Assembly: GCF_004364585.1 (NCBI RefSeq)
Contig: NZ_SOAN01000003.1
Coordinates: 1-64,000, forward strand
Direction of reading: 5' to 3'
DNA length: 64,000 nucleotides
Origin: Nesterenkonia aurantiaca
GTDB taxonomy: Bacteria; Actinomycetota; Actinomycetes; Actinomycetales; Micrococcaceae
Shown: positions 3,333 to 34,033 of the stretch, piece by piece
How the letters are laid out: every line of letters begins with the position of its first letter
Position numbering within the stretch: the stretch's first letter is position 1
The notes under the pieces: model-generated
Told to the model about the DNA's origin: nothing
What the model saw: only the letters and a program-made list of their open reading frames with translations
The model's database searches: none
Made by a program: the position numbers and the translations under genes

Positions 3333-3334
3333 AC

Positions 3335-4618: not shown

Positions 4619-4767
4619 TCAACACTGCCACCTGGGGCATATAGCGCCCCCGCCGCTTACGGTCGCGATCCACAGTCAGCAATCGAGCGGACCGGCCTGA
4701 CGTGGGGGAGTGTCCGGTGAGCGATTGGCTCGCAGGCTGACGCAGGGTCTGCTTCTGGCGGTGCATA

Positions 4768-4817
4768 GTCCACTTGACACAGCCGAGGATGTAAAAGAAG
4801 CTGTACGTCAAGTGAAC
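4768..4817 (+). promoter_or_regulatory. Interrupted inverted repeat upstream of the second membrane/HTH pair
   Basis: Two 11-base arms, GTCCACTTGAC (4768-4778) and GTCAAGTGAAC (4807-4817), are inverted repeats matching at 10 of 11 positions with 28 bases between them. The left arm includes TTGACA (4774-4779), a perfect -35 hexamer, but no good -10 sits at the usual distance. The site lies 22 bases before the GTG of the gene at 4840. It may be an operator for the HTH protein encoded at 5309. Confidence 0.5.
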
Positions 4818-4839
4818 TGTTCATTTAGGGGGACTCAAA

Positions 4840-5307: not shown

Positions 5308-5308
5308 C

Positions 5309-5509
5309 GTGAAGAACCTGGTCCACGAATCACGACGACGCCTGGCGTGGTCTCAGCAGAAACTTGCCGATGAACTCGGGGTCTCGCGCCAGACGATCAT
5401 CTCAATCGAGCGCGGGCGCTTCGATCCATCTCTGCCCTTGGCATTTCGAATTGCAGCTGTCTTCGACTGCACCATCGAAGATATTTTCCTTCCCGAGGAT
5501 CAGTCGTGA
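5309..5509 (+). CDS. Small XRE-type HTH regulator
   Basis: A 66-residue HTH protein of the compact YozG/AnsR-like type. The motif SQQKLADELGVSRQTIISIE is a clear helix-turn-helix, followed by PSLPLAFRIAAVFDCTIEDI, the usual C-terminal signature. The GTG start at 5309 lies one base after the stop of the membrane protein, with GAAAGGG upstream. It probably represses its own operon through the inverted repeat at 4768-4817. Its stop overlaps the next small ORF. Confidence 0.85.
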   Translation: MKNLVHESRRRLAWSQQKLADELGVSRQTIISIERGRFDPSLPLAFRIAAVFDCTIEDIFLPEDQS

Positions 5510-5730
5510 CAAGGCCCGTCTCGGGTGCCTTCACTTACAGATGGCGTACTCCTGGAATGGGTTTGGCAACAAGACTTCAGCGGTACCTGGGACTCGAGTC
5601 GATGCCGGTCCACGAGCAGTACCAGAGGGCCGAGCGTGGTGCGCAGCTCACCTGCACCAGGTGTGGAGCATTCGTGGCACACGAGAATCAGGCCGTGCAC
5701 ACTCGACGGCATCGCGAGGGTGGAATCTAG
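5506..5730 (+). CDS. Small putative zinc-finger protein
   Basis: An ORF of 74 codons whose GTG start overlaps the stop of the HTH gene (GTGA), suggesting coupled translation. Near the C-terminus it shows CTRCGAFVAHENQAVHTRRH, a C-x2-C then spaced histidines arrangement. This resembles small actinobacterial proteins with a CxxCGALV core and an H-x2-3-H tail. The first 17 residues are less convincing, and the ATG at 5557 is an alternative start. Function is unknown; zinc binding is inferred from residue spacing only. Confidence 0.5.
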   Translation: MTRPVSGAFTYRWRTPGMGLATRLQRYLGLESMPVHEQYQRAERGAQLTCTRCGAFVAHENQAVHTRRHREGGI

Positions 5731-5785
5731 CTCTGACCTGCCACATCACTGGAGTCCGCGAGAGGCGGTCCCGTAGAGGTCCCTC

Positions 5786-6304
5786 ATGCCCGACCTGACG
5801 ACTGATCGTCTCCTGCTGCGCGACTTCATCTCCGCGGACGTCCCGGGTGTCCACGCTTACGCCGCTGATGCGGAGGTGTGTCGCTATATGGACTGGGGTC
5901 CGAACACGCTGGAGCAGACTCGTGTGTTCATCGAGGACACGATGGCCGCCGCTTCACGCTCCGCGCGCGAGTCCTTCACCTGGGCAGTCACCGCTGGGGG
6001 AGAGGTCCTGGGGGCTTGCTCGGTCACGATCACAAGTGCCGAGCACCATCGTGGAGAGCTGGGCTACGTGTTGGCCCGCCGATTCTGGGGTCAGGGGTAC
6101 GCCACCGAGGCCGCGGACGCCGTGCTGGGCTTCGCGCACGAAGAACTGGGACTGCAGCGGGTAGAGGCGACGTGCCGGCCGGGCAACATCGCGTCGCAGC
6201 GAGTCCTGAGACGGATCGGAATGCAGCAAGAAGCCCTCTTGCGCTCACATATGCTCATCCGTGGACGACGGGAAGACTCCCTGTTGTTCGTGAGGGTGGA
6301 CTGA
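5786..6304 (+). CDS. GNAT acetyltransferase (RimJ/RimL-like)
   Basis: A 172-residue acetyltransferase of the RimJ/RimL branch, which moves an acetyl group from acetyl-CoA to an amine, often a protein N-terminus or a small toxic amine. The N-terminal TDRLLLRDF, the strand GELGYVLARRFWGQGYATEA containing the acetyl-CoA binding loop (R-x2-GxG-like), and the late NIASQRVLRRIGM are family hallmarks. It stands as a single gene. The substrate cannot be predicted. Confidence 0.85.
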   Translation: MPDLTTDRLLLRDFISADVPGVHAYAADAEVCRYMDWGPNTLEQTRVFIEDTMAAASRSARESFTWAVTAGGEVLGACSVTITSAEHHRGELGYVLARRFWGQGYATEAADAVLGFAHEELGLQRVEATCRPGNIASQRVLRRIGMQQEALLRSHMLIRGRREDSLLFVRVD

Positions 6305-17659: not shown

Positions 17660-17725
17660 CTGAGCGGGTCCGGCCGCTGAGCGGGTCCGGTCCGCGCGCT
17701 CAGCGCGCCGGCCGGACCCGCTCAG
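17660..17725. terminator. Long hairpin between convergent pckG and ureohydrolase genes
   Basis: The 16-base segment CTGAGCGGGTCCGGCC (17660-17675) is perfectly complementary to 17710-17725, which lies inside the last codons of the minus-strand ureohydrolase gene. A second copy of the first 14 bases follows at 17677-17690, so two alternative stems can form. There is no U-tract. It probably acts as a bidirectional terminator. Confidence 0.5.
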
Positions 17726-18698
17726 CGCCCATGGCGGAGATCAGCTCGTAGAGCACGTGCGCGGCCGCGATCCCGGTCAGCTGCGCGTGGTCATAGGCGG
17801 GGGCGACCTCGACGACGTCCACGCCGACGATCTGCTGATCGCTCAGGGCACGGATGATCCGCAGCAGCTCGCGGCTGGTCAGCCCACCGGCCTCCGGGGT
17901 GCCGGTGCCGGGGGCGTGGGCCGGGTCCAGCACGTCGATGTCCACCGAGATGTAGACCGGCTTCCCGGCCAGGCGCTGCTTGAGCCGGGTGATCGCTGCG
18001 GGGACCCCGTGTTCCTCGATGTACTCGCTGCTGGTGATCTGGAACCCGAGCTGCGCGTCGTCGGTGAGATCGCCCTTGCCGTAGAGCGGTCCGCGGATTC
18101 CCAGATGCGCGCTCGCGGTGAGATCGATGAACCCGTCCTCCGAGGCTCGTCGGAACGGGGTGCCATGGGTGAGCGGAACCCCGAAATAGGTGTCCCAGGT
18201 GTCCAGATGCGCATCCGCATGCAGCACCGCCACCGGGCCGTGCTGCTCGGCCGCGGCGCGCAGCAGCGGATAGGCGATCGTATGGTCGCCGCCGATCACC
18301 GCGAGCCTGCCCGCGCGGGTCAGCAGCTCCTTCGCTCCCTGATAGACCTGCTCCATCGCCTGGTCCAGATCGAAGGGGTTCGCGACGATGTCCCCGGCGT
18401 CGGCCACCTGCTGCACCGCGAAGGGTGAGATGTCCTGGGCGGGGTTGTACGGGCGCAGCAGCCGGGAGGACTCGCGCACATGCGCGGGCCCGAACCTTGC
18501 GCCGGGCCGGTAGCTCACCCCGGAGTCGAAGGGCACCCCGGCCACCGCGATGTCAGCGGTGCCCACCGTCTCCAGAAGCGGCAGCAGCGCGAAGCTGGCG
18601 GGGCCGGCGAAGCGCGGCGTGCGGGAGCTGTCCCGGGGTCCCACCGGTGTCTGGGGTGGGTCCTGCGGGTGTTCTGCGGAGGCGTCGTGGGGGCTCAT
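17700..18698 (-). CDS. Ureohydrolase (agmatinase / guanidinobutyrase family)
   Basis: A 332-residue binuclear manganese enzyme that hydrolyses a guanidino group to urea plus amine. Metal ligands are in [14 protein letters not shown] and [19 protein letters not shown], the full arginase-superfamily set. Automated calls would say agmatinase. The nearby DavB-like oxygenase and amidase make 4-guanidinobutyrate (yielding GABA and urea) a better guess. I used ATG 18698; ATG 18707 and GTG 18728 are alternatives. It lies 39 bases after the BCCT gene on the same strand, so they are probably one operon. Confidence 0.85.
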
Positions 18699-18737
18699 AC
18701 GCCTCATTGTTGCGCAGAACTCGTCCACATCGCGGGA

Positions 18738-20351
18738 TCAGCTCACGGTGTGCGGCTCGGCGTCGACCGTTCGGCGGGGCTCGGCGCGCCGGACGAACCG
18801 GGCGTCCCGGCGCAGCTCCTTGACCAGCGAGATCCCGAGCAGGGTGGCGATGATGGTGAATGGCACCGCGGAGAGCAGCGCGGTCTGCTGCAGCGCCTGC
18901 AGGCCGCCGGCGATCAACAGGACGATGGCGCAGAGCCCGGTGAGCAGGCCCCAGACGCCCAGCATGGGTCGGCTCGGGTACATCGAGCCGCGCGAGGAGA
19001 GCACGCTGAGCACGAAGGTGTTCGAGTCGGCGCTGGAGACGAAGAACAGCACCACCATAGCCACGGTGAGCACCGAGGTGATGGCCGCGAGTGGCAGTGC
19101 ATCGAGCAGCGCGAAGAAGGTCACGTTGGTGTCCTCCAAGGTGGCCTCGCCGATGCTGTTGCCGGAGAACATATCGAGATGGATCGCGGAGCCGCCGAAG
19201 ATCGTGAACCAGAGGCTGAAGACCAGGGTCGGTACGCCGAGCACCGCGACCACGAACTCCCGGATGGTGCGCCCCTTGGAGATCTTCGCCAGGAAGATGC
19301 CGACGAAGGCGCCCCAGCTCAGCCACCATGCCATCATGAAGTAGGTCCACCACTGCATCCACTGCAGGTCCTCCGGGGTGCCCGGGGTCAGCAGCGCGAC
19401 CATCGGGAACTCCGCGAGGAACTGTCCCATGGAACGGAAGTACAGGTTGCTGATGAAGCTGGTCGGGCCCACCGCCAGCACGAACACGCCCAGCGCCGCG
19501 GCGGCGAGCATGGTGGCCTTGCTGATCCATTTGATGCCGCGGGTGACCCCGGACATCGCGGAGAGGGTGAAGACCACGGTGATCCCCCCGATGATGATGA
19601 CCTGCACGAACAGATCCGAGGGGATCCCGGTGAGGCTGTTGACCCCCTCGGCGATCTGCGCCGCGCCGAGTCCCAGCGAGGTGGTGGTGCCGAAGAGCGT
19701 GGCGATGATGGTGAAGATGTCGATGAGCTGGCCCGCCCAGCCGTCCATGCTCTTGCCCAGCACCGGGCGCAGCATCGGGGAGATCAGTCCGGTGTTGTGC
19801 CGCCTGTGGGTGGAGTAGGCGATGGCCAGCCCGAAGACGCCGAACAGCGCCCAGGCATTGGGGCCCCAGTTGAAGTAGGAGAACTGCATCGCGCGCACCG
19901 CGGCGTCCAGGGTCTCAGGCTCTGCGAGGCCGTGCGGTGGCACCATGAAGTGGCTCATCGGTTCGGCCGCGCCGTAGCTGATCAGCCCGATGCCCATCAC
20001 GGTGCCGCAGATCATCGCGATCCAGGACCAGTTGCTGAACTCCGGGCGGTCATGATCCTCGCCCAGCCGGATCTTGCCGAACCTGCTCAGTCCGAGATAG
20101 ACCATCAGCGCGATGCAGCCCGCTGTGACCACCAGGTAGGCCCAGCCGATGTTCTGCGAGGACCAGGTCGACGCCGCCGTCATCACCAGGTTCAGATTCT
20201 CCGGCGCGAGCGCCGCCCAGAGCACGAAGCTCAGCAGCGCCGCCATCGAGATGATGAAGACACCGCTGGGGCGCGAGCGGCCCGGGGTCCGGCTCACGCC
20301 GTTTCGTTCGGCGTCTGGCACCGTTCGGGGTGCCTTGTCCTGGCTGTTCAT
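18738..20351 (-). CDS. BCCT family transporter
   Basis: A 537-residue, roughly 12-helix secondary transporter of the betaine/carnitine/choline family. The family signature is visible as the WWTYFMMAWWLSWG segment, with FVSSADSNTFVLSV and FSYFNWGPNAWALF as further conserved blocks. Substrates usually carry a positive charge; given the linked ureohydrolase, arginine or 4-guanidinobutyrate is possible but unproven. The ATG at 20351 was chosen because the longer reading adds a cysteine-rich stretch unlike the family. Start is uncertain. Confidence 0.88.
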   Translation of the reverse strand: MNSQDKAPRTVPDAERNGVSRTPGRSRPSGVFIISMAALLSFVLWAALAPENLNLVMTAASTWSSQNIGWAYLVVTAGCIALMVYLGLSRFGKIRLGEDHDRPEFSNWSWIAMICGTVMGIGLISYGAAEPMSHFMVPPHGLAEPETLDAAVRAMQFSYFNWGPNAWALFGVFGLAIAYSTHRRHNTGLISPMLRPVLGKSMDGWAGQLIDIFTIIATLFGTTTSLGLGAAQIAEGVNSLTGIPSDLFVQVIIIGGITVVFTLSAMSGVTRGIKWISKATMLAAAALGVFVLAVGPTSFISNLYFRSMGQFLAEFPMVALLTPGTPEDLQWMQWWTYFMMAWWLSWGAFVGIFLAKISKGRTIREFVVAVLGVPTLVFSLWFTIFGGSAIHLDMFSGNSIGEATLEDTNVTFFALLDALPLAAITSVLTVAMVVLFFVSSADSNTFVLSVLSSRGSMYPSRPMLGVWGLLTGLCAIVLLIAGGLQALQQTALLSAVPFTIIATLLGISLVKELRRDARFVRRAEPRRTVDAEPHTVS

Positions 20352-20616
20352 CTGTGTCACGCGTCCTTGGCTCAGCGAACAGAGCCAACAGCCCGCCGCG
20401 ACGAATGCACAGGCGGCCGCCAGAACATCGGGGACAAGCATACGCAACCTCTCCCGCCCAGCTGCACCGGAACTCCCAGCGGGCCCGGGGCTCGGCGAGA
20501 CATTCCGGGTCCGGGGCCCTGGTCAGTCCCACTGGAGTGCCCTAGGTTATGATCCACACGTGAGACACGTCACTCCACCTGGTGGGCGGTCTCGGAACAA
20601 GGTGGGAGATGCAGCC

Positions 20617-22236
20617 ATGAGCGATCAGTCCGGAGACGCGACGCCCGATCAGGCCCGACGCGAAGGCATCATCGACACCGGAGGCCCCACACGCCCACCG
20701 GCGAAGACCTGGGCCTTCCGAGCGCTTGGGATCGGGCTGGCCATCCTGGTCTGGGCGCTGCTCGGCGCCGCCGACATGTCCGCCGACGCGCGCCTGGTGG
20801 CCGGGGTCGCGGTGCTGATGGCCGTGTGGTGGATGACCGAATCGATGCCGCTCTCGGTCACCTCGCTGCTGCCGATCGTGCTCTTCCCGGTGCTCACCGC
20901 GCTGGAGGTCGCCGAGGTCACCGCGCCCTACGCGAACCCGATCGTGTTCCTCTTCCTCGGCGGCTTCCTGATCGCCATCGCGATGCAGAAATGGAACCTG
21001 CACCGCCGGATCGCGCTGCTGACGCTGCAACGGGTCGGCACGCACCCCCGGCAGATCATCCTCGGGATGATGATCGCCACCGCGTTCCTGTCCATGTGGG
21101 TCTCCAACACCGCGACCACCCTGATGATGCTGCCCATCGGCCTGAGCGTGCTGACCCTGGTGGTGGAGAACAGCCGCAACACCGGCACCCAGGCCGAGAG
21201 CGCCTCCCTGACCGAGGAGATCCGGTCGGGCAAGGCGATCAGCGACGTCATCGAGGACCGTGAGGTGCGGATCTTCGGCGTCGCCCTGGTGCTGGCGATC
21301 GCCTGGGCCGCCACCATCGGCGGGCTCGGCACCCTGCTGGGCTCCCCGCCCAATGCCATCGTGGCCGGCTACATCAGTGAGGAGCTCGGTGAGACCGTCG
21401 GGTTCGCCCAGTGGATGATCCTCGGGGTGCCGATCGTGGTCGTGTTCATCGGACTCTCCTGGCTGCTGATCACCCGGGTGATGTTCCGATTCCAGCTCGC
21501 GGAGATCCCCGGCGGCAAGAAGCTGATCAATGACGAGGTCTCCGCCCTGGGGCCGATGAGCCAGGGAGAGAAGGTCGTGCTCGGCGTATTCGTCCTCGCC
21601 GCCTTCTGCTGGATCGTGCCCGGAGTGCTCTCCGGCGTCGGTGACATCGGTGAACAGCTGCCCTGGCTGGAGCTCTTCGACGACACCGTGATCGCCATCG
21701 GCGCAGGCGTGCTGCTCTTCCTGATCCCCGGTGACAAGCGCGGCAACATGACCCTGCAGTGGAAGGACGCCGAGGAAGGTCTTCCCTGGGGTGTGCTGCT
21801 GCTCTTCGGCGGCGGCCTCTCACTCGCCGCGGCCGTGGCCAGCACCGGTCTCGATGCCTGGTTCGGTGAACAGGTCAGCGGCCTCGGCGCGCTGCCGATC
21901 GTGCTGCTGCTGGCCGTGGTGGTCACCATCGTGCTGCTGCTGACCGAGATCACCAGCAACACCGCCACCGCAGCCACCTTCATCCCGATCCTCGGCGGCG
22001 TGGCGGTGGGCATCGGGGTGGACCCGGTCACACTGCTGATCCCGGCTGCCCTGGCCGCGACCTGCGCGTTCATGCTCCCGGTGGGCACCCCTCCGAATGC
22101 CATCGTCTACGCCACCGGCTATGTGAAGATCACCGAGATGGTGCGCGGCGGTGTCGTGCTCAACGTCGTCGGGATCATCCTGATCACGATCTTCACCGTG
22201 CTCCTGGGACCGATAGCCTTCGGCATGGTGTTCTGA
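20617..22236 (+). CDS. DASS (SLC13) family sodium-coupled anion transporter
   Basis: A 539-residue inner-membrane symporter for dicarboxylates, related anions or sulfate. Both halves of the inverted repeat carry the SNT motif (WVSNTATTLMMLPI and ITSNTATAATFIPI) and the paired GSPPNAI / GTPPNAIVYATG loops that bind sodium and substrate carboxylate. The ATG at 20617 follows GGTGGGAG. It is transcribed divergently from the BCCT gene, 265 bases away, and is followed 90 bases later by the amidase. Uptake of a C4-C5 acid linked to amino-acid catabolism is a guess. Confidence 0.9.
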   Translation: MSDQSGDATPDQARREGIIDTGGPTRPPAKTWAFRALGIGLAILVWALLGAADMSADARLVAGVAVLMAVWWMTESMPLSVTSLLPIVLFPVLTALEVAEVTAPYANPIVFLFLGGFLIAIAMQKWNLHRRIALLTLQRVGTHPRQIILGMMIATAFLSMWVSNTATTLMMLPIGLSVLTLVVENSRNTGTQAESASLTEEIRSGKAISDVIEDREVRIFGVALVLAIAWAATIGGLGTLLGSPPNAIVAGYISEELGETVGFAQWMILGVPIVVVFIGLSWLLITRVMFRFQLAEIPGGKKLINDEVSALGPMSQGEKVVLGVFVLAAFCWIVPGVLSGVGDIGEQLPWLELFDDTVIAIGAGVLLFLIPGDKRGNMTLQWKDAEEGLPWGVLLLFGGGLSLAAAVASTGLDAWFGEQVSGLGALPIVLLLAVVVTIVLLLTEITSNTATAATFIPILGGVAVGIGVDPVTLLIPAALAATCAFMLPVGTPPNAIVYATGYVKITEMVRGGVVLNVVGIILITIFTVLLGPIAFGMVF

Positions 22237-22326
22237 CCAGCCTGACCCTCAGGAAGAGTGAGGTGCTGACCGGCTGATTCTGAAGGAGTCCGCCCAGCTG
22301 GGCATCGGTCAGGGGATACTGGTCCC

Positions 22327-23118
22327 ATGCGAATCGCGCTGATGCAGCACACCGCCCGTCCGTTGGAGCCGCAGCACAACCTGGACCTGGTCGACGACGC
22401 CGCGGCTCGGGCGAGCGAGCAGGGGGCCCAGCTGCTGCTCACCCCGGAGCTCTTCGGCTTCGGCTACGTCCCGTCTCAGATCCGTGCCCAGGTCAGCGCG
22501 GAACAGGTCGACGCCGCGAGGTCCAGACTGCGCGGTATCGCCCGGGACCGCGGGATCGCGCTGGTGTGGTCGCTTCCCGGCCCTGAGGGGCCCGAGCGGC
22601 GCGGGATCACTGCCGAGCTCGCCGATGAACACGGAGAGGTGCTTGCCAGCTACCAGAAGGTCCAGCTCTACGGACCCGAGGAGAAGGCCGCCTTCGTCCC
22701 GGGCGAGCAGCCGCCGCCGGTGCTCAGCTGGGGCGGACGGCAGCTGAGCCTGCTGGTCTGCTACGACGTGGAGTTCCCCGAGATGGTCCGGGCCGCCGCA
22801 GCCCGCGGCGCCCAGCTGGTGCTGGTGCCCACCGCTCTGGCCGGGGACGAGACCTCGGTCCCGGGGATCCTGCTGCCCGCGCGCGCGGTGGAGAATGGGA
22901 TCACCCTGGCCTATGCCAACCACTGCGGCCCGGAGGGCGGGCTGGTCTTCGACGGGGGCAGCGTCGTCGTCGGCCCGGCAGGGCAGCCGCTGGGGGAGCT
23001 GGGTGTGGAACCGGGTTTGCTGGTCGTGGACCTGCCGGACCAGAGCCAGGACGCAGGTTCCGACAGCGCGGACTACCTTCAGGATCGGCGCGCGGAGCTC
23101 CACCGGAACTGGCTGTAG
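22327..23118 (+). CDS. Carbon-nitrogen hydrolase, DavA-like amidase
   Basis: A 263-residue nitrilase-superfamily amidase. The Glu-Lys-Cys triad is E41 (TPELF), K111 (YQKVQLYG) and C145 (LVCYDVEFPE). Start (MRIAL), length and the ending (YLQDRRAELH) closely resemble 5-aminopentanamidase DavA as I recall it. In a DavB/DavA pair it would hydrolyse the amide made by the oxygenase: 5-aminovaleramide from lysine or 4-guanidinobutyramide from arginine. GATACT lies 6 bases before the ATG, suggesting a leaderless mRNA. It is convergent with the oxygenase gene. Confidence 0.85.
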   Translation: MRIALMQHTARPLEPQHNLDLVDDAAARASEQGAQLLLTPELFGFGYVPSQIRAQVSAEQVDAARSRLRGIARDRGIALVWSLPGPEGPERRGITAELADEHGEVLASYQKVQLYGPEEKAAFVPGEQPPPVLSWGGRQLSLLVCYDVEFPEMVRAAAARGAQLVLVPTALAGDETSVPGILLPARAVENGITLAYANHCGPEGGLVFDGGSVVVGPAGQPLGELGVEPGLLVVDLPDQSQDAGSDSADYLQDRRAELHRNWL

Positions 23119-23201
23119 CGGTCCCAAGCCGGCCACCGATTCCGGCCACCCAGTCGGGCCGCCCAGTCCGGGCGACCAGTCCAACCGTTCAGTCCGGCCG
23201 T

Positions 23202-24920
23202 TCAGTCCAGCCGGATCGGGGCCAGATCCGCCCAGACGTCACCCGGCCCGGGGTTCTGCGCCGCGGCGGACCCGCCCAGGTGGTGCAGCACCCCCCAGAC
23301 CGCGTTCAGCGCGGTGGTCACCGCGCCGTCGGCCCAACCGGCGGTGAAGGAGATGTCGTCGCCGGCGAGGAACACCCCGCGCTGGTGCTCCGGCAGCTGC
23401 TCCTGGACGAAGTGCCCGAAGAGCCGCTCCTGGTAGCGGTAGTGCCCGGGCAGGTTGTTCTTGAAGGCGCCCATGAAATTTGGGTCGGCCTCCCAGGAGA
23501 CCGTGATCGGCTCACCGACCATATGCGCCCCGATGTCCACCCCGGGGTAGATCTTCGCCAGTGAATGCAGCATCAGCCGGGTCCGCTCGGAGGCGTCCAG
23601 CGGGAGCCACTTCAGGGCGTCGTCGTTCCAGGTATAGCTGAGCAGGATCGCGGCAGGCCGGTCCGGGCCCTCATCCAGCAGGTAGGTGGCGCGGGGGAGC
23701 CGGTCGGTCAGCGTCATGGACATCACCGGGCGCCCGGTCTCCGGGTCGATGTCGCGCCAGAAGGGCCGGTCCACCATCACAAAGGTCTTGGAGGAGAGCA
23801 TGTAGTGGCTCTTCTCGATCGCGGTCCACATCGAGGGAGCGAAGAGATTCTCATCGGTGTCGATCCGCGCCGAAAGCAGCCAGGACTGGCAGGTCACCAC
23901 CGCGGCGGCGAACTCCTGGGTGCGGCCCCATTTCTCGGTGACCCGCACCCCGCCGCCGGGCAGCGCCGGGTTGCTGCCACGATGGATCCCGGAGACCGCA
24001 CCTCGAGGGGCCCCGCCATGCAGAGATTCCAGCGAGGTTCCAGGGGACCAGTGGGCAAGCTGCTCGGGGCGGTGCTTCCACAGCTGGACCGGCAGCCGCT
24101 GGGCACCCCCGTCGATGCTGCGGTGGTGATCATCGGCGCCGGTGAACACCACGCGCAGCACCTCGAGGATCGAATTCGTGAAGTCGGTGTCCCAGCCCCC
24201 GCTGCCGAAGCCGACCTGTCCGAAGGCCTCCAGGTGCTCGAAGCTCAGATCCTGGAACGCCTGGCTGGAGGAGAGGAAGCCGTAGAAGGACTCATCGTCG
24301 AAGCGCTCCACCAGCTGGTTCCACAGCCGCTTCAGCGTATGAACATCGCGGGCGCAGATCGCCTGCTGCACCGCCTCCAGCTCGGCCTCCTCGGTGAGCG
24401 CGCGCTGCCAGGCCTGGGCCACCTCGGCGAAGAACGGCGGAAGGTGGCTGGCATCTTCGGCGTAGAACGCCTGACCCTTGAGCTCGATCACCGTGGAGGG
24501 GGCCGCCCCGGTGAGCGGATTCGGGAACTCCCGGGTCGGCAGATCCAGCAGATCCACGTAGTGATAGAACGCCTTGCCCGAGGTGGGGAAGCGCATCCCG
24601 CCCAGATCGGCCACCACCTCCGGGGCCGCGGCGAAGGACTGGGTCTTCAGTCGGCCGCCGATCTCCCCGGCCTCGAAGATCACCGGTTTGCACCCCAGCT
24701 TCATCAGCTCATAGGCGGCGACGACGCCGGCGAGCCCTGCCCCGATCACGGCCACCTCCGTGCCCTGGGCCTGTTCGGGGAGGCTGCCCAGCCCTGCCGG
24801 GTGCTCCAGGTAGTGGTCGTAGCTGAACGGGAAGTCGGGGTTGAGCATGGTCAGCGTGGGCTCCCCGGGGGCGGCGTCCGCCGGGTCCGGGGTCTCGGGC
24901 AGCGGGCTGGAGACTGTCAT
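23202..24920 (-). CDS. FAD-dependent L-lysine/L-arginine 2-monooxygenase family (DavB-like)
   Basis: A 572-residue flavoenzyme. The dinucleotide motif is at residues 56-90 (VAVIGAGLAGVVAAYELMKL), with GGRL and DLGGMRFP after it and the FAD-closing GDDISFTAGWADGAV near the end. The N-terminal NPDFPFSYDHYLEHPAGLGS and the whole architecture match DavB, which decarboxylates and oxygenates an amino acid to an amide. Asp246 (GGWDTDF) aligns with the residue reported to bind the lysine side chain; Ala262 replaces the DavB cysteine. TAAGCT lies 6 bases before the ATG. Lysine versus arginine is unresolved. Confidence 0.87.
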   Translation of the reverse strand: MTVSSPLPETPDPADAAPGEPTLTMLNPDFPFSYDHYLEHPAGLGSLPEQAQGTEVAVIGAGLAGVVAAYELMKLGCKPVIFEAGEIGGRLKTQSFAAAPEVVADLGGMRFPTSGKAFYHYVDLLDLPTREFPNPLTGAAPSTVIELKGQAFYAEDASHLPPFFAEVAQAWQRALTEEAELEAVQQAICARDVHTLKRLWNQLVERFDDESFYGFLSSSQAFQDLSFEHLEAFGQVGFGSGGWDTDFTNSILEVLRVVFTGADDHHRSIDGGAQRLPVQLWKHRPEQLAHWSPGTSLESLHGGAPRGAVSGIHRGSNPALPGGGVRVTEKWGRTQEFAAAVVTCQSWLLSARIDTDENLFAPSMWTAIEKSHYMLSSKTFVMVDRPFWRDIDPETGRPVMSMTLTDRLPRATYLLDEGPDRPAAILLSYTWNDDALKWLPLDASERTRLMLHSLAKIYPGVDIGAHMVGEPITVSWEADPNFMGAFKNNLPGHYRYQERLFGHFVQEQLPEHQRGVFLAGDDISFTAGWADGAVTTALNAVWGVLHHLGGSAAAQNPGPGDVWADLAPIRLD

Positions 24921-24981: not shown

Positions 24982-25941
24982 ATGGCGCGCTTCATCTCTT
25001 CATCGAATTCTGCGTTCACCGCGACCAGCACCGCCGAGGAGGTGCTGGAGCGGGTCGATCTGCGAGGGAAGTCAGCGGTCGTGACCGGGGCATCCTCAGG
25101 GATCGGGATCGAGACTGCCCGAGCCCTGGCAGGGGCCGGTGCTCATGTGGTGCTCGCGGTCCGTGACGTGCCAGCCGGGCGCCGAGCCGCCGATGACATT
25201 CTCCGCACGCACCCGGCGGCGTCTCTCGACGTCCGGGGCCTGGACCTGGCGGATCTGGACTCGGTAGGTCGTTTCACGAGCGACTTCTCCGGTCCGCTGC
25301 ATCTGCTGATCAACAACGCCGGCATCATGATGACTCCCGAGCTGCGCACCGCGCAGGGCTGGGAGCTTCAGTTCGCCACCAACCACCTGGGCCACTTCGC
25401 GCTCGCGCTGGGGCTGCATCCACGATTGCGCGCGGCCGGGGGCGGCAGGATCGTCTCGGTGAGCTCCAGCGGGCATGGCATGTCAGACATCCGCTATGAG
25501 GATCTCTTCTTCGACCGTGGAGCCTATGACCCCGGGCACGCCTACGGGCAGTCCAAGACTGCCAATGTGCTGTTCGCCGTGGAGGCCACCCGCCGATGGG
25601 CGCCGGAGCGCATCACGGCCAACGCCGTCATGCCCGGTGGGATCTGGACCAACCTGCAGCGCCACTGGGAGCCTCGGGCGCTCGCCGAAGCCAAGTCCTA
25701 TGTCGAGCGCGCCGGTATAGCCATGAAGTCCCCGGCACAGGGGGCCGCGACATCGATCTTCGCCGCAGCCTCGCCCCTGCTCGAGGGGATCGGCGGGCTG
25801 TATCTGGAGGACTGCCAGGAGGCGGAGACGGTCCCGGAGATCGTCAATGGCACACATGGTGTGAGGGACTACGCGCTGGACCCGGAGAGCGCCGCAAGGC
25901 TCTGGGAGGTGTCCCGAGAACTGCTCCGCCAGAACTCTTGA
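24982..25941 (+). CDS. Short-chain dehydrogenase/reductase
   Basis: A 319-residue NAD(P)-dependent oxidoreductase of the SDR superfamily, close to the retinol-dehydrogenase-like branch. TGASSGIG (residues 35-42) binds the coenzyme, NNAG and the catalytic serine strand (SVSSSGHG) follow, and the active site is YGQSK. The ATG has AAGGA upstream. It is divergent from the oxygenase and upstream of the iron-transport genes, with no clear functional tie to either. Substrate unknown. Confidence 0.88.
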   Translation: MARFISSSNSAFTATSTAEEVLERVDLRGKSAVVTGASSGIGIETARALAGAGAHVVLAVRDVPAGRRAADDILRTHPAASLDVRGLDLADLDSVGRFTSDFSGPLHLLINNAGIMMTPELRTAQGWELQFATNHLGHFALALGLHPRLRAAGGGRIVSVSSSGHGMSDIRYEDLFFDRGAYDPGHAYGQSKTANVLFAVEATRRWAPERITANAVMPGGIWTNLQRHWEPRALAEAKSYVERAGIAMKSPAQGAATSIFAAASPLLEGIGGLYLEDCQEAETVPEIVNGTHGVRDYALDPESAARLWEVSRELLRQNS

Positions 25942-25985: not shown

Positions 25986-26834
25986 GTGCCAATCAATCGA
26001 ACGCCCGCCACGCTGCGGACAGAGTCTGTCTCGGTCTCCTACGGAGCCTCCCCGGTGGTGCACGACGCCAGCGTCGAGCTGCTCCCCGGCGGGGTCACCG
26101 CCCTGATCGGCCCCAATGGCAGCGGCAAGTCCACACTGCTGCGCGGCATCTGCCGACTCGCGCACACCACGGGGCGCGTGACCCTGGACGGCTCAGACAG
26201 TGCGGCGCTCTCGCCCAGGGCCTTCGCCAAGCGGCTCACCATCCTCGCCCAGCAGCGCCCCACCCCCGGCGGGCTGACCGTGTCCGAAGTGGTCGAACTC
26301 GGCCGACATCCCCACCGGAAGCGTTTCAGCCGCACGGACCAGGCCTGCGAGAAGGCCGTGGAACGAGCCATCGCACTGACGGGCCTCGAAGAGCTGCGGC
26401 ATCGTCCGGTTGCGGAGCTCTCCGGCGGACAGCTCCAGCGGGTCTGGCTCGCCACCTGCCTGGCCCAAGAGACCGACGTGCTGCTGCTCGATGAGCCCAC
26501 CACGTTCCTGGATCTCAAGCACCAGATGAGCCTGCTGGATCTGATCCATGATCTCGCCGACACCCACGGGCTGACCATCGGGGTGGTGCTGCACGATCTC
26601 GAGCAGGCCGCCGATATCGCCGACCGCGTCATCCTGGTCTCGGAAGGACGGATCACCGCCACCGGAACCCCCGCCGAGGTGATGACCGCCGAACGGCTCA
26701 GCGCCACCTTCGGAGTGGATATCCAGGTGGCCACGCTTCCTTTCGGCGGACTCGCGGTGCGCGCCCAGCGCTCCGGAAGGCGCCTGAGCGCCCGGGCCGA
26801 GGAGCTTGCAGAACCGGCGCTGCTCTCCGCCTGA
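25986..26834 (+). CDS. Iron-siderophore ABC transporter ATP-binding protein
   Basis: A 282-residue FepC-type ATPase powering siderophore import. Walker A is GPNGSGKST (42-50), Q-loop LAQQ, signature LSGGQLQRVWLA, Walker B VLLLDEPTTFLD and H-loop VVLHDLEQAADIADR. It is first in a three-gene set with binding protein and fused permease. The GTG start follows TAACAT by 6 bases with no Shine-Dalgarno sequence, so a leaderless, iron-repressed transcript is likely. Confidence 0.93.
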   Translation: MPINRTPATLRTESVSVSYGASPVVHDASVELLPGGVTALIGPNGSGKSTLLRGICRLAHTTGRVTLDGSDSAALSPRAFAKRLTILAQQRPTPGGLTVSEVVELGRHPHRKRFSRTDQACEKAVERAIALTGLEELRHRPVAELSGGQLQRVWLATCLAQETDVLLLDEPTTFLDLKHQMSLLDLIHDLADTHGLTIGVVLHDLEQAADIADRVILVSEGRITATGTPAEVMTAERLSATFGVDIQVATLPFGGLAVRAQRSGRRLSARAEELAEPALLSA

Positions 26835-26980
26835 CCCTCTGCGCTATTTCCTCCCGGCCAATCCCTCCCCGCCGCATCCGCGCAGGTCGCGTCCTCGCCA
26901 CACCTTGCCCTGTTTCACCCCTGCCTGACCCACAGTTTCCACACCTTGTTTGACCCTTACCGAAAGGAACTCTCTCCACC

Positions 26981-27985
26981 ATGAACCTCTCTCCCCGCCT
27001 CGGCAGGACGTCTGCGGCCGCCGCCGTCGTCCTGATGGCGCTGACCGCCTGTGGCACCACCGATGTCGAAGACACCGAGGAGGACGCCGCGGCCGCGGAC
27101 TCCGGCCCGGTCACCGTGACCGACTACCGCGGCGAAGAGATCACCCTGGACGCCCCGGCGCAACGCGTGGTCACCCTGGAATGGGCGCAGACGGAGAACG
27201 TCGAGATCCTCGGCGGCAACCAGGTCGGCGTGGCCGATCTTGAGGGCTACGGGATGTGGAACTCCGCAGCGCCGTTGGACGAGGACACCACCGACGTCGG
27301 GCTGCGCACCGAGCCGAGCCTGGAGGCCATCGGACAGGCCGATCCTGACCTGATCCTCGGCGTGGACGTCTCGGTCCCGGAGGGCCTGCTGGAGGATCTC
27401 GAGGAGATCGCTCCAGTGGTGCTGCAGCCCGGGGCGGACGCCTCGGACCCGCTGGGGAATATGGAGGACAACTTCCGGATGACCGCTGAGCTGCTCGGCG
27501 CCGAGGACCGCGCCGACGAGGTCTGGGCCGAGTTCGAGGAGACCCGCGACGCCGGTGCCGAGGCCATCGAGGCCGCCGGGGCAGCCGGCACTCCGTTTGT
27601 GCTGGTCTACCCGACCGTGGAGGGCAACACCGCGACCTTCCGGATGCACGGCCCAGGAGCCCTCGCGCAGACCCTCGGTGAGGAGATCGGCCTGGAATCG
27701 GCCTGGCAGGACGAAGGGGATGAGGCCTTCGCGATCAGCCAGTCCGACATCGAGGGTCTGACCGCGCTCGAGGATGACACGATCCTCTACTGGTGGACCG
27801 CCGAGACCGAGCCCGAGGATCCGTTCTCCGCGCTCGAGGACAACTCGGTCTGGACCTCACTGGGCTTCGTCGAGAATGAGGCCACCCACCCGGTGGAGGA
27901 GATCTGGATCTATGGCGGCCCCGCCTCGGCCGGTCAGTGGATCGACTACCTGGCCGATACCGCAGCCGAGACCGCCGGAGAGTAG
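26981..27985 (+). CDS. Iron-siderophore binding lipoprotein
   Basis: A 334-residue periplasmic-type binding protein anchored by lipid in the membrane. The signal ends at LTAC (Cys24), followed by an acidic linker. The mature protein has the FepB/FhuD-type start VTVTDYRGEEITLDAPAQRV and the first-domain pattern ending in EAIGQADPDLIL. It would deliver a ferric siderophore to the permease that follows. GAAAGGA precedes the ATG and the stop overlaps the permease start by one base. Confidence 0.92.
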   Translation: MNLSPRLGRTSAAAAVVLMALTACGTTDVEDTEEDAAAADSGPVTVTDYRGEEITLDAPAQRVVTLEWAQTENVEILGGNQVGVADLEGYGMWNSAAPLDEDTTDVGLRTEPSLEAIGQADPDLILGVDVSVPEGLLEDLEEIAPVVLQPGADASDPLGNMEDNFRMTAELLGAEDRADEVWAEFEETRDAGAEAIEAAGAAGTPFVLVYPTVEGNTATFRMHGPGALAQTLGEEIGLESAWQDEGDEAFAISQSDIEGLTALEDDTILYWWTAETEPEDPFSALEDNSVWTSLGFVENEATHPVEEIWIYGGPASAGQWIDYLADTAAETAGE

Positions 27986-30111
27986 TGACTGAACTGAAGA
28001 GTGCCGCCGAGGCGCCAAGGACGCTTCCCCGAGGCCCCGCCGGGTCCCCGGCGAAGGCGCGCGCCACCGCCCTGGGTGCGCTGGTCATCGGCGCCGGGCT
28101 GCTGGGGCTGCTCTCGATGATCCACCTGACCCAGGGGACCTCGGCCACCTCTCCCTGGGACCTGCTGGCGGCACTCTTCAGCTCCGACGACGGCGCCTCC
28201 GCTGCCCAGCTGCGCGCACTCGCGCTGGATTCGCGGCTGCCACGACTGGTGGGAGGGCTCGTGGTGGGCGCCGCACTCGGCATCGCCGGGTGCGCGCTGC
28301 AGGCGATGACGCGGAATCCGCTGGCCTCCCCGGACACTCTGGCGGTCAACGCGGGGGCGCATCTGGCGCTCACAGCGGCCGCAGCTTTCGGGATCTCGCT
28401 GCCGCTGCTGAGCTCCGCGGCGCTGGCCTTCCTCGGCGGAGGCGTGGCGGCCGGCGTCGTGCTGCTGCTCGCCGGGTTCTCCGAACATGCCCCGATCCGG
28501 CTGGTGCTCGCCGGGACCGTGGTGGCCATGGGGCTGGCCTCGGTGACCGCGGCGCTGCTGATGCTCTACGCCCAGTCCACCCAGGGGCTGTTCCTCTGGG
28601 GCGCCGGCACGTTGAACCTGGCCGGGCTCTCCGGGCTGCTGCCGCTGCTGCCGGTGGTGATCGCCGCGACCATCGGACTGGTGCTGCTCGCGCGCAGCAC
28701 CGATGTGCTCTCCCTGGGTGCAGACGCCGCGCAGTCCATGGGCGTCAATGTGGCGCTCCTGCGCGCGGGCCTGCTGCTCTGCGCGGTGGCGCTCTCGGCG
28801 GCCGCGGTGACCATGGTGGGCCCGCTGGGCTTCGTGGGCCTCTGTGCCCCGGCGATCGTGCGGCTTCTCGCGACGCGGGTCAGCCGGCTGGGCCGCTTCA
28901 CCTGGGCATTGAGCGCCTCCGCTCTGCTGGGTGCGCTCATCGTGATCGGCGCCGACGTCGCGGTCCGCGCCCTGGTCTTCGCCGTGGCCGGTCCGAACCT
29001 GGCCGTGGCCATCCCCACCGGCGTGGTCACCTCGCTGGTGGGTGCGGTGTTCCTGGTGGTCCTGGCGCTGCGGATGCGCAGCGCCGGCGGCAATCAGGAG
29101 ATCTCCACGATGCCGCTGCCCCATGGGATCACCCTGAGCCGCCGGGTCACGCTCACGATCGGCGCCGCGGTGCTGCTGATGGTGCTCGCCGGGGTCGGCA
29201 TGCTGCTGGGGGACTGGTGGCTGCGCCTCGGTGACGTCCAGCTGTGGCTCTCCGGGGAGGCCGCTCGTGCCATCGAGGTCACCCTAGACTTCCGCAGTCC
29301 CCGCGTCGCTGCAGCCGTGTTGGCCGGTGCGGTGCTCGCGATCGCCGGCGCGCTGGTGCAGACCGTGACCCGGAACCCGCTGGCGGACCCTGGCATCCTC
29401 GGCGTGGCCGCCTCCGGAGGCGCCGGCGCGGTGGTCGCGCTGATCCTGTTCAACACCTCCGCCTGGACCATGTCTGCCGGAGCGGCGGTGGGCGCGGTGC
29501 TCGCCGGGCTGGTGGTCTTCCTGCTCGCGGGGTCCCGAGGGAGCTCCCCGGAGAAGGTGGTGCTGGTCGGAATCGGAGTCATGACCGCCGCGCAGGCGAT
29601 CACTCAGCTGCTGATCTCCTCCACGAACCCCTATAACCAGGCGATGGCGATCTCGTTCCTGGGCGGCTCCACCTTTGGGACCACCTGGAGCGATCTCACC
29701 CCGATCCTGCTGATGCTGCTGCTCTCCATCCCGGTGCTGATCTTTCTGCGCCGGGAGCTGGATCTGATCAGCATCGATGACCTGACCCCGCGGATCCTCG
29801 GGGTGCGACTCTCCGGTGTGCGCGCCACCGCGCTGATCATCGCGGTGCTGCTCTCTGCGGTGGCAGTGGTCGGCGTGGGCGTGATCAGCTTCGTGGGCCT
29901 GGCCGCCCCACATATGGCGCGGATGCTGGTGGGCCGGGAGCACCGCTGGTTCCTGCCGGTTGCCGCAATGTTGGGCGCGGTGCTGGTCTCAGTCTCGGAC
30001 ACCTTCGGGCGCACCGTGATCGCCCCGGACCAGCTGCCCGCCGGACTGGTGGTCGCGGTGCTGGGCCCGCCGTACCTGCTGTGGCTGCTGAAGCGCTCCA
30101 CTCGGAGTTGA
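27985..30111 (+). CDS. Fused iron-siderophore permease (two FecCD domains)
   Basis: A 708-residue membrane protein with two complete FecCD units in one chain (about 28-360 and 385-705), like FhuB. Each half has the conserved block after the second helix: GCALQAMTRNPLASPDTLAV and GALVQTVTRNPLADPGILGV. Each also has an ATPase-coupling region (GFVGLCAPAIVRLL and SFVGLAAPHMARML). The fusion supplies both permease halves, so no partner gene is needed. Its GTG start lies in TAGTG, sharing one base with the binding-protein stop. Confidence 0.93.
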   Translation: MTELKSAAEAPRTLPRGPAGSPAKARATALGALVIGAGLLGLLSMIHLTQGTSATSPWDLLAALFSSDDGASAAQLRALALDSRLPRLVGGLVVGAALGIAGCALQAMTRNPLASPDTLAVNAGAHLALTAAAAFGISLPLLSSAALAFLGGGVAAGVVLLLAGFSEHAPIRLVLAGTVVAMGLASVTAALLMLYAQSTQGLFLWGAGTLNLAGLSGLLPLLPVVIAATIGLVLLARSTDVLSLGADAAQSMGVNVALLRAGLLLCAVALSAAAVTMVGPLGFVGLCAPAIVRLLATRVSRLGRFTWALSASALLGALIVIGADVAVRALVFAVAGPNLAVAIPTGVVTSLVGAVFLVVLALRMRSAGGNQEISTMPLPHGITLSRRVTLTIGAAVLLMVLAGVGMLLGDWWLRLGDVQLWLSGEAARAIEVTLDFRSPRVAAAVLAGAVLAIAGALVQTVTRNPLADPGILGVAASGGAGAVVALILFNTSAWTMSAGAAVGAVLAGLVVFLLAGSRGSSPEKVVLVGIGVMTAAQAITQLLISSTNPYNQAMAISFLGGSTFGTTWSDLTPILLMLLLSIPVLIFLRRELDLISIDDLTPRILGVRLSGVRATALIIAVLLSAVAVVGVGVISFVGLAAPHMARMLVGREHRWFLPVAAMLGAVLVSVSDTFGRTVIAPDQLPAGLVVAVLGPPYLLWLLKRSTRS

Positions 30112-31651: not shown

Positions 31652-32554
31652 GTGGAAATACTGGTGGTCCTTGCAATCGGCGTCGTGCTGTTCCTGGGTA
31701 TTCGCATGCTCATGCAGCGGCAGGCCCAGAAGCTCAACGATGGCATCAAGGTGGCTGTGACCCCGGAGAACGCGCGCAAAGCGGCGCTGGCGCTCTCGGA
31801 CGAGCAACACCGCGAGCTCTACCGCGCCATCGGCGCAGAGGATGGCCGGCGTGCGCTGGCGATCTTCAAGCAGTCCACCGGCGCGCCGGTCAAAGACTGC
31901 ATCATCGCGGTCCAGGCGTTGCATGCCTACCCCCAGCAGGCGCCCTCAGAGCTGCGCGTCGAAGACGAGATGACCGGCTCCGACGGCGGCGCGAGCGCCA
32001 ACCCTGCGGAGCGCCGCGATCGCCCCGCAGCCGAGGATGAGGTCCTCGACGGGGAGCTGGTGGAGGACGCCATCGATGGAGTCCGCGAGGACGCAGACTC
32101 CTCCGAGCGTGACGCGTCCACCCAGGATCCAGCCAAGCCCATCGGCGAGGCCGATCCGCATACCGGCGAGATCCTCGGCGAGAACTCCCAGCAGATCCCG
32201 AACGTCCCCGGTGGCGACAAGCCCCACCGCGACGCCGACGCCCCTCACGACGTGGATGCCCGGGCCAAGCGACTGATGCAAGAGTCCGGGTTCAATCCCG
32301 AGGACGAGCTGACCATCCCGGAGGACTGGGATACCGAGGAAGAAGAGATGGCCGGCTTCCACCTCGAGGTCCAGCGCGGGGAGGAGAAGATCACGCTCTC
32401 CCACGACGATCTCGAGCCTTGGGTCCACGATCAGCTCTACGCGTTGCTGCGCGATGACCGGGTGGACCAGGCGGCAGAGCTGCTCTCGGCGCACTCCCCG
32501 CTGACCAAAGAGGAAGCCCGCAAGTTCCTCGTGGTCTTCAAGAACCAGACCTGA
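31652..32554 (+). CDS. Hypothetical membrane-anchored protein with L7/L12-like segments
   Basis: A 300-residue protein with one N-terminal membrane helix (residues 2-20), a short helical domain, a long acidic disordered centre (about 100-200) and a second helical domain. Both helical parts, RRALAIFKQSTGAPVKDCII and the segment DQAAELLSAHSPLTKEEARK, resemble the helix-loop-helix of the ribosomal L7/L12 C-terminal domain. No named family recognised. The GTG start has TAGACT 6 bases upstream, suggesting a leaderless mRNA. It is divergent from manB. Confidence 0.65.
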   Translation: MEILVVLAIGVVLFLGIRMLMQRQAQKLNDGIKVAVTPENARKAALALSDEQHRELYRAIGAEDGRRALAIFKQSTGAPVKDCIIAVQALHAYPQQAPSELRVEDEMTGSDGGASANPAERRDRPAAEDEVLDGELVEDAIDGVREDADSSERDASTQDPAKPIGEADPHTGEILGENSQQIPNVPGGDKPHRDADAPHDVDARAKRLMQESGFNPEDELTIPEDWDTEEEEMAGFHLEVQRGEEKITLSHDDLEPWVHDQLYALLRDDRVDQAAELLSAHSPLTKEEARKFLVVFKNQT

Positions 32555-32671
32555 TCTCAGGCGGTTCCTGCCCGATCAGCTCGTTTGGTTAAAAGTTTCG
32601 GAAAGATTCCACACCTGATTTGTGAATCCCTATAGGCTCGAGTGAATTCTCGCGTACGAAGGGGTATTCGA

Positions 32672-34033
32672 ATGGTTCCGAAGACTTGGCATGAAGCCCG
32701 CCTGATTCCCACCTCTGGCATCGGCAGTCCGATCGAGCAGGAACGACGAGCTACTTCCGCCCTGCTTGCAGTCATCAGCGCTGTCGACGAGTTCGGCCGT
32801 GCATTGTTGAAGCCCTGTGGCGCTCCTGCCGGCCACGTCGAGACCTACGTGGAAGTCCCCTTTGACCTCGGGAAGAAGTCCCTGCGCCCGGATGGGGTGA
32901 TACGAGTGTCCCGGGGCAAGCGAGAATGGACCGCACTCGTCGAGGTGAAGACCTCGTCCAACCACCTCGAAGTGGAGCAGGTCGAGAACTACCTCGACCT
33001 GGCCAAGGACAACGGCTACGACGCCGTCATCACCATCTCCAACGAGATTCCGCCCGTGATGGGAAGCCACCCGCTGGTGCTCGACAAGCGCAAGGTCAAG
33101 AGCGTGCCGGTGTACCACTTTTCATGGGTGCGGATTGTCTCCATCGCCTTGATGCAGAAAGAAGTTCACGGAGTCCAAGACCCGGATCAAGCCTGGATTC
33201 TCGGTGAGCTCATTCGGTACTTGGAACATGATAATTCTGGAGCGCTGGCGTTCACTGACATGGGTTCGTCGTGGACCAAGGTTCGGGAAGACGCGAGAAA
33301 AGGTGTGCTGCGCAAGACTGATCCTGACGTGGTGGATGTGGCCACGAAGTTTGATGCGCTCATTCGGTACACCTGTCTCAGGCTGGGGCAGAAGTTGGGC
33401 ACAGAGGTCTTCCCGCAGCTTCCCCGGCGACAGTTGCAGAACCCCAAGGAGCGGACGGCAGAACTCGTCGAAGAGCTGGTGGCGGACAGTTGCCTGGCCG
33501 CGAAGATTCGCATCCCGGACACGGTGGCCGACCTCGAGGTGAAATGTGATCTTCGAGGTCAACAGATTCACATCTCGGTGACCGTGCCCGCTTCAGGTCA
33601 CGCGCGCAGTGAGACCCGAGTGCGGTGGCTCATGCGGCAGCTCTCCGATGACCTGGAGAACGTCGTTATCGAGGCGAGTGGTCGAGGTCGAAAACTGGCC
33701 GCTCCCATCAGTGAGATTCGTGCGGATGAGAAGGTGTTGGCCCCGGAAACCGACAAAGAGATCAGCCGCTTCAAGATCACGCATATCTACCCAATGGGTG
33801 TCGCAAAGTCCACACGGGCGAAGTCATCGTTCATCGATTCCGTGGGTACCTCGATTGATGACTTCTACGGACGAGTGCTTCAACGGTTGAAGCCGTGGAC
33901 GCCGCCGGCACCGAAGCTCCGCGCCAAGCCAGAAGAGCGGATGCAGGATGACCAGTACGCCTCCACGGACCTCTCCTCGATGGATTCCAGCGAACCCGTG
34001 ACGGCATCAGTGGCGCCCGCGACGGAGACCTGA
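32672..34033 (+). CDS. PD-(D/E)XK nuclease-like protein, unknown role
   Basis: A 453-residue protein whose N-terminal third looks like a PD-(D/E)XK fold: LRPDGVIRV followed by ALVEVKT gives the D...ExK metal-binding set, with a helix rich in Gln/Glu after it (VEQVENYLDLAK). The rest is unfamiliar; residues 270-400 seem to form a second mixed domain and the tail is Ser/Thr-rich. ATG 32672 has GAAGGGG upstream; GTG 32642 is an alternative. Base composition looks less GC-rich than its neighbours. Possibly an acquired stress or defence gene. Confidence 0.6.
   Translation: MVPKTWHEARLIPTSGIGSPIEQERRATSALLAVISAVDEFGRALLKPCGAPAGHVETYVEVPFDLGKKSLRPDGVIRVSRGKREWTALVEVKTSSNHLEVEQVENYLDLAKDNGYDAVITISNEIPPVMGSHPLVLDKRKVKSVPVYHFSWVRIVSIALMQKEVHGVQDPDQAWILGELIRYLEHDNSGALAFTDMGSSWTKVREDARKGVLRKTDPDVVDVATKFDALIRYTCLRLGQKLGTEVFPQLPRRQLQNPKERTAELVEELVADSCLAAKIRIPDTVADLEVKCDLRGQQIHISVTVPASGHARSETRVRWLMRQLSDDLENVVIEASGRGRKLAAPISEIRADEKVLAPETDKEISRFKITHIYPMGVAKSTRAKSSFIDSVGTSIDDFYGRVLQRLKPWTPPAPKLRAKPEERMQDDQYASTDLSSMDSSEPVTASVAPATET

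Follow-up and report, generated by a model that had tools for sequence, protein, structure and literature searches.

Introduction

The oxygenase route of arginine breakdown has long been known biochemically, and its first enzyme, arginine 2-monooxygenase, is classified as EC 1.13.12.1. Here we describe a locus of Nesterenkonia aurantiaca that probably encodes a catabolic route of this kind, running from arginine to gamma-aminobutyrate (GABA). The stretch analyzed, which we call the window, comprises the first 64,000 nucleotides of contig NZ_SOAN01000003.1 (C3:1-64000) in a 2.95 Mb genome (G000) that is 99% complete, and the genes in question encode a flavin adenine dinucleotide (FAD)-dependent amino-acid 2-monooxygenase (MOX), a nitrilase-fold amidase (NIT) and a ureohydrolase (URE1).

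Each of these proteins has a described counterpart. The L-amino acid oxidase/monooxygenase of Pseudomonas sp. AIU 813 (PDB 3we0, 5yb6-5yb8) resembles the window MOX in its aromatic cage and in the equivalents of Arg102, Tyr416 and Asp238, but belongs to a separate clade and has Gln258, Ala515 and Cys254 where the window enzyme has His, Gly and Ala. The amidase structures 5jqn, 3hkx and 4izs, which we take to originate from Nesterenkonia, are described as "aliphatic amidase" acting on short-chain amides; 5jqn is near-identical to NIT, for which a role in the pathway is our proposal. GbuA of Pseudomonas aeruginosa (3nio) is the best solved relative of URE1, with which it shares the metal ligands and R72, although it has Met161 where URE1 has Tyr and lies distant from it in the ureohydrolase tree. 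At the level of the pathway, the Streptomyces studied in the marginolactone work are described as having an arginine monooxygenase and a 4-guanidinobutyramide hydrolase, the same two first steps that we predict; there, however, the acid becomes a polyketide starter via a CoA ligase, whereas here the ureohydrolase points to catabolism (PMC5082578, PMC4737276). The DavB-DavA pathway of lysine (DavBA, PMC12930585) likewise joins an oxygenase to an amidase but includes no ureohydrolase step.

The pathway itself is thus already known, and our additions are the grouping of its genes, a residue pattern and a proposed role for a crystallised amidase. An initial annotation of the window had called the genes of the pathway poorly assigned; this is only partly right, as genes for the first steps are reported in the Streptomyces marginolactone work cited above. 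Of the catabolic set we found no description in the open-licence literature that was searched.

Results

The proposed route and its three core genes

The genes at the center of the argument are the following (window coordinates):

17700..18728, minus strand: URE1, ureohydrolase, predicted 4-guanidinobutyrase (Pfam Arginase, 302.6 bits)
22327..23118, plus strand: NIT, nitrilase-fold amidase, predicted 4-guanidinobutyramide hydrolase (Pfam CN_hydrolase, 108.7 bits)
23202..24920, minus strand: MOX, FAD amino-acid 2-monooxygenase, predicted arginine 2-monooxygenase (Pfam Amino_oxidase, 149.8 bits)

In the proposed route, MOX would use FAD and oxygen to convert L-arginine to 4-guanidinobutyramide with loss of CO2, NIT would hydrolyze the amide to 4-guanidinobutyrate and ammonia, and URE1 would split 4-guanidinobutyrate into GABA and urea. 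GABA would then reach succinate by way of a GABA transaminase (GabT) and a succinate-semialdehyde dehydrogenase (SSADH) encoded elsewhere in the genome, where two GabT genes score over the cut-off, each beside an SSADH homologue, one pair lying about 7 kb from a second ureohydrolase gene (URE2). We infer all substrates, and the direction of flux, from sequence.

Co-occurrence and linkage of the oxygenase, amidase and ureohydrolase

One set of 297 genomes of the order served for all searches, the queries being MOX, ureohydrolase (URE), NIT and the BCCT-family transporter encoded next to URE1, and presence was defined as E <= 1e-40 for MOX (30 genomes), E <= 1e-30 for NIT (34) and E <= 1e-30 for URE (86). 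A match of about 1e-100 or better was counted as a strong URE (79 genomes), and the 7 genomes with a weaker best match were scored as without URE. Strong URE occurred in 26/30 MOX genomes and in 53/267 genomes without MOX (p = 4e-13), and NIT in 25/30 versus 9/267 (p = 4e-24), these p-values disregarding kinship. URE lay within 10 kb of MOX in 16 of the 30 MOX genomes, being only 35-141 bp away in 13 of those; NIT was likewise within 10 kb in 16/30, and all three genes were close together in seven, the window included. In the nine MOX genomes that belong to the window's family but not to its genus, URE was always present and never within 10 kb. The three-enzyme core of MOX, NIT and URE is a real conserved set.

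We also examined named MOX loci, taking the best 80 of 257, of which 63 have full flanks and which come mostly from Arthrobacter and its kin; the nearest to the window's MOX was that of Nesterenkonia sp. E16_10 (98% identity). NIT was found in 67 of the 80, an APC permease in 67 and a PucR-type regulator in 66 (58, 56 and 56 of the 63 with full flanks). Together, MOX, amidase, ureohydrolase and permease make up a testable arginine-to-GABA pathway for many actinobacteria. Compact arrangements included a Tsukamurella plasmid, on which speB, an amino acid permease, a carbon-nitrogen hydrolase and MOX share a strand, with four-base overlaps between the first three; Nesterenkonia GX14115 (NIT-URE-MOX); Nesterenkonia sp. 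F (MOX-URE); Auritidibacter (NIT and URE-MOX); Kocuria palustris (GabT-NIT-PucR-APC-MOX-URE); and two stretches of family f14 (L180 and L181; NIT-APC and URE-MOX). In another locus (L185), the row begins with an amidase and MOX and continues with URE, a thiamine diphosphate (ThDP) enzyme, two SSADH homologues under the cut-off and a GABA transaminase over it. This ThDP enzyme is closest to 5-guanidino-2-oxopentanoate decarboxylase (341.5 bits, cut-off 500), and its gene overlaps that of the ureohydrolase both here (L185:10366-12102) and in L186 (15619-17370); the enzyme could recover 2-ketoarginine that arises through oxidase side activity.

In family f21, which is tentatively Streptomyces-like, all 11 MOX genomes have NIT beside MOX and five have an APC permease, while URE was found within the stretch in none of the 11. 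An amidase adjoins MOX in seven of the eight plasmid loci opened (Tsukamurella and alphaproteobacterial). In Pseudoclavibacter helvolus and in three congeners, MOX is accompanied by APC and PucR, but NIT and URE are both absent within 10 kb. We take P. helvolus to be the former Brevibacterium helvolum, the organism in which the arginine oxygenase route was studied; in its locus (L038; MOX 76% identical), two consecutive frames after MOX look glutaminase-like by eye. In one further locus (L188, G143:C4:426000-443000), the MOX match is split in two, next to a ureohydrolase match of full length, owing to either a broken gene or a sequencing error.

The oxygenase and its substrate site

The window MOX aligned to 3we0 with 758.5 bits over residues 16-570, and the equivalents of Arg102, Trp235, Asp238, Tyr416, Trp418, Phe473 and Trp516 of 3we0 are all present. 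This full-length similarity, together with the kept site residues, makes it a member of the 3we0-like amino-acid 2-monooxygenase family. Residues D246, A262, H266 and G528 of the window enzyme lie at or near the substrate site. Positions 258 and 515 (3we0 numbering, used hereafter) contact the bound substrate in 3we0, and position 254, which sits behind the aromatic cage, is described as decisive for the oxidase/monooxygenase ratio (PMC5832979).

A tree of 44 chosen loci, the window and two solved chains separated three groups. The 3we0 clade (support 100/100) holds 11 rows, namely 3we0, seven alphaproteobacterial rows, and single rows from genomes G448, G500 and G071. The window's group (support 90/92) has 27 rows, all actinobacterial save one Acidobacteria metagenome-assembled genome, whose contig (L053) carries an Arthrobacter-like cluster (69% MOX) and is possibly misbinned. 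The third group (support 99/91) consists of Streptomyces-like rows, Tsukamurella and G073. Positions 258 and 515 were His and Gly in all 34 rows of the window and third groups; in the 3we0 clade, Gln258 was found in 11/11 rows and Ala515 in 10/11. Position 254, which is Cys in 3we0, was Ala in the same 34 rows. These counts exclude a tryptophan monooxygenase and G201 (L189), which shows a mixed pattern of Gln258, Gly515 and Ala254. In a wider set of 132 rows, from which duplicates and matches below 500 aa were removed and in which the window possibly appears twice (WIN_MOX and L001) and two truncated rows have a gap at 515, His258 was found in 120 rows and Gln258 in 12.

Both the tree and the residues (His266 and Gly528 instead of the Gln258/Ala515 pattern) thus separate the window MOX from the clade that holds the Pseudomonas AIU 813 enzyme. 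The initial description of the oxygenase as DavB-like is right as to family, but does not extend to the clade of the solved enzyme. Because the tree joins the 3we0 clade with the window's group and leaves the third group outside, with the root on a long branch, the His258/Gly515 pattern may be an ancestral state and not a new gain. The pattern offers a simple candidate rule for separating arginine-type oxygenases. In tryptophan and phenylalanine enzymes, the wider pocket is attributed to Ala515->Gly and Trp235->Phe jointly (PMC5832979); the window MOX retains Trp at position 235, and we infer that Gly515 alone could give space for the guanidinium group.

Ureohydrolase was not found by tblastn in the stretches of nine of the ten 3we0-clade rows with DNA, and G071, which is of the same genus as the window, had none genome-wide at E <= 1e-30. 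Its locus (L187, G071:C8:71000-88000), in which a 3we0-clade MOX is flanked by an amidase on one side and a GABA transaminase over the cut-off on the other, provides a natural contrast to the window. Arginine is the better-fitting substrate of the window MOX than lysine, given the co-occurrence, the close linkage, the phylogeny and the site residues, and the context favors its prediction as an arginine 2-monooxygenase forming 4-guanidinobutyramide from L-arginine. The chain put forward initially, through 4-guanidinobutyramide and 4-guanidinobutyrate to GABA, draws support from the same four lines of evidence.

The ureohydrolase

The solved chains nearest to URE1 were the guanidinobutyrase 3nio (234.9 bits), 3nip and 1gq6, then the "agmatinase" 4dz4 (214.4 bits); by class, these relatives are guanidinobutyrase, guanidinopropionase and proclavaminate amidinohydrolase, with the putative agmatinase close behind. 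URE1 keeps the metal ligands (H149, D172, H174, D176, D263), and its R92 aligns with GbuA R72, which is proposed to reach the carboxylate in the neighboring subunit (PMC9772407). All 45 of 45 actinobacterial URE rows share the Arg of this column with guanidinopropionase; proclavaminate amidinohydrolase has His there, and both E. coli agmatinase and 4dz4 have Ala. In E. coli agmatinase, it is Trp68 of the capping loop that is proposed to meet the amine, a role suggested for Trp or Glu (PMC8125230); URE1, with its Arg, lacks this arrangement when set against the two agmatinase-named chains. Met161 of GbuA was also considered as a marker of guanidinobutyrases and proved unhelpful; URE1 has Tyr there, as does guanidinopropionase.

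The midpoint-rooted URE tree comprised 50 rows, after removal of 23 duplicates and matches below 250 aa, with loci for only 30 of the URE matches. Its 45 actinobacterial rows grouped with the guanidino-acid hydrolases, apart from the two agmatinase-named chains, the branches being long. URE1 scored below the cut-off of PRK02190 (292.3 vs. 302). We predict that URE1 is a 4-guanidinobutyrase, and these results suggest that "agmatinase"-named ureohydrolases beside such oxygenases are guanidinobutyrases as well. For arginine decarboxylases, a search of the window genome with three families (PF02784, PF01276 and PF01862) found one PF02784 gene, which is LysA, and none of the other two.

The amidase

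NIT has the nitrilase-superfamily catalytic triad E41-K111-C145 in a CN_hydrolase fold (PF00795), just as first annotated, and differs from 5jqn at 4 of 263 aligned residues. We further take NIT and 5jqn to be the protein described as the amidase of Nesterenkonia AN1. The natural substrate of this repeatedly crystallised amidase may be 4-guanidinobutyramide.

Alternative explanations

A number of observations weigh against an arginine-to-GABA route, and we consider them here together with the alternatives. Four of the 30 MOX genomes have no strong URE and five have no NIT match, and URE is present in just 9 of the 80 named MOX loci (7 of the 63 with full flanks). NIT matches outside Nesterenkonia are often just 35-50% identical, for which reason some of these distant homologues may serve other functions. 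The three genes are on both strands in the window. In Nesterenkonia LB17 (L033), URE is absent from the stretch, although MOX, NIT and the DASS-family transporter are kept, and BCCT is directly followed by phosphoenolpyruvate carboxykinase. A human variant with Gly at the capping Arg still hydrolyses guanidinobutyrate (PMC9772407), so that the Arg of URE1 is a hint and not proof. Finally, URE2, which is 69% identical to URE1 and lies beside an aldehyde dehydrogenase gene in the same genome, means that URE1 need not be the main enzyme splitting 4-guanidinobutyrate; the two may share the last step. The stretch around URE2 (L172, G000:C2:268000-282000) and L241 form a possible separate locus leading from guanidino acids to succinate: a second CN hydrolase is present, as are NCS1-like permeases and an SSADH-like aldehyde dehydrogenase that score below their NCBIfam cut-offs, with the GabT-SSADH pair nearby.

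The alternative that survives best, though we consider it unlikely, is a lysine or ornithine pathway of the DavB-DavA type (the lysine pathway having DavT as a further member), in which MOX would make an omega-amino amide, NIT an omega-amino acid, and URE1 would be an unrelated neighbor. The MOX belongs to the 3we0 family, and 45/45 rows of the three MOX groups keep Asp238, the residue that binds the charge of the side chain. According to the kinetic data given in PMC5832979, the Pseudomonas enzyme accepts lysine, ornithine and arginine, arginine being the poorest (kcat/Km of 200 for ornithine, 74 for lysine and 24 for arginine, at different pH), and because of this range the window MOX may be broad too. 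The 3we0 clade holds one assayed member only, and it includes an exception to its own pattern, G448 (L240, G448:C57:21000-38000), which has Gly515 and encodes a ureohydrolase (44%) on the opposite strand, at a distance of 1.4 kb from MOX. Moreover, an amidase lies beside MOX in six of seven alphaproteobacterial plasmid loci and in G071, and in none of the seven was a ureohydrolase annotated or found by tblastn in the stretches, so a MOX-amidase pair alone does not imply arginine. These rows, however, form the separate clade with Gln258 and (but for one row) Ala515, whereas the window has His and Gly, and URE is associated and closely linked with MOX in the window's own group. We therefore regard the arginine route as the likely function of the locus, on the strength of comparisons between sequences.

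Less probable still is that NIT scavenges nitrogen as a general short-chain aliphatic amidase and adjoins MOX by chance. The AN1 amidase is described as active on short-chain amides (PMC3968332). A chance neighbor is hard to reconcile with the presence of NIT in 25/30 MOX genomes versus 9/267 others and its linkage to MOX in 67/80 named loci, in 11/11 Streptomyces-like MOX genomes and in 7/8 plasmid loci. Least probable of all is that URE1 serves agmatine catabolism as a genuine agmatinase, with no relation to MOX and NIT: URE1 is over the cut-off of the NCBIfam agmatinase model TIGR01230 (231.4 vs. 174.3) and strong URE occurs in 53/267 genomes without MOX, but the capping-column Arg in 45/45 rows (Ala in the two agmatinase-named chains), the guanidino-acid hydrolases as closest solved relatives, the lack of an arginine decarboxylase among the three families searched and the position of URE 35-141 bp from MOX in 13/30 MOX genomes all argue against it.

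The transporters and other neighboring genes

Three further genes lie between or beside the core genes:

18738..20447, minus strand: BCCT-family transporter, possible pathway role (Pfam BCCT, 552.6 bits)
20617..22236, plus strand: DASS-family anion symporter, probably outside the pathway (Pfam Na_sulph_symp, 256.4 bits)
24982..25941, plus strand: short-chain dehydrogenase, divergent neighbor of MOX (Pfam adh_short)

Pfam agreed with the initial annotation for both transporters and the three enzymes, all five of which lie within 7.3 kb at the places and on the strands first given. Their expected co-occurrence held for MOX, NIT and URE (26/30 and 25/30, as above) but failed for the transporters, which are linked to MOX only in close kin and are not part of a conserved set. 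BCCT at >=50% identity was present in 4/30 MOX genomes versus 17/267 (p = 0.25); it was linked to MOX in 5/80 named loci, all Nesterenkonia, in four of which it lay beside URE. DASS, which is over the cut-off of NCBIfam TIGR00785, was linked to MOX in 3/80, again only in Nesterenkonia. Among the loci with full flanks, the counts were again five and three. A single five-gene unit was rejected on these grounds, BCCT being linked to MOX in 1/30 MOX genomes of the order sample, that of the window.

The BCCT protein has a full-length domain (PF02028, profile 1-485 of 485), and its gene lies directly upstream of URE1, with 9 bp between its end and the earliest start that URE1 could have; four further BCCT matches occur in the window genome. 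BCCT and URE co-occur as genes (18/79 vs. 3/218 genomes), but at >=50% identity BCCT was within 10 kb of URE only in the window genome, and a widespread BCCT-URE module was accordingly rejected. No BCCT was found in the stretches of five genomes of family f19, in which URE is 68-76% identical and MOX is lacking; URE adjoins an NCS1-type permease in one of them (L173), and a 32-33% ThDP-enzyme homologue occurs in L174 and L175. The BCCT family is known for quaternary ammonium solutes. BCCT may bring in a substrate of the pathway; it may equally well have an osmolyte role. The window genome contains no close relative of the pathway's usual partner, the APC permease (best 25% identity), and because BCCT lies 9 bp from URE1 here and beside URE in four of five loci, we tentatively raise the possibility, itself doubtful, that in this Nesterenkonia lineage BCCT has replaced the APC permease, imports arginine or 4-guanidinobutyrate and is coupled as a gene to the downstream guanidinobutyrase.

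Start sites allow some choice. Candidates for URE1 are GTG 18728 and ATG 18707 or 18698, and for BCCT 20447, 20441 and 20351. The open frame of DASS begins at 20149, within BCCT on the opposite strand, and ATG 20617 is therefore the likelier start. The short-chain dehydrogenase is linked to MOX in 4/80 named loci and is not thought to be part of the pathway.

Beyond it, at 25986-30111, consecutive ABC-ATPase-like, binding-protein-like and 724-aa permease-like frames resemble, by eye, an iron-siderophore uptake system with a double-length permease. The G+C content is 0.595-0.62 over positions 1-6000, compared with >=0.64 in most of the remaining window, and dips a second time, to 0.607, at 32001-34000.

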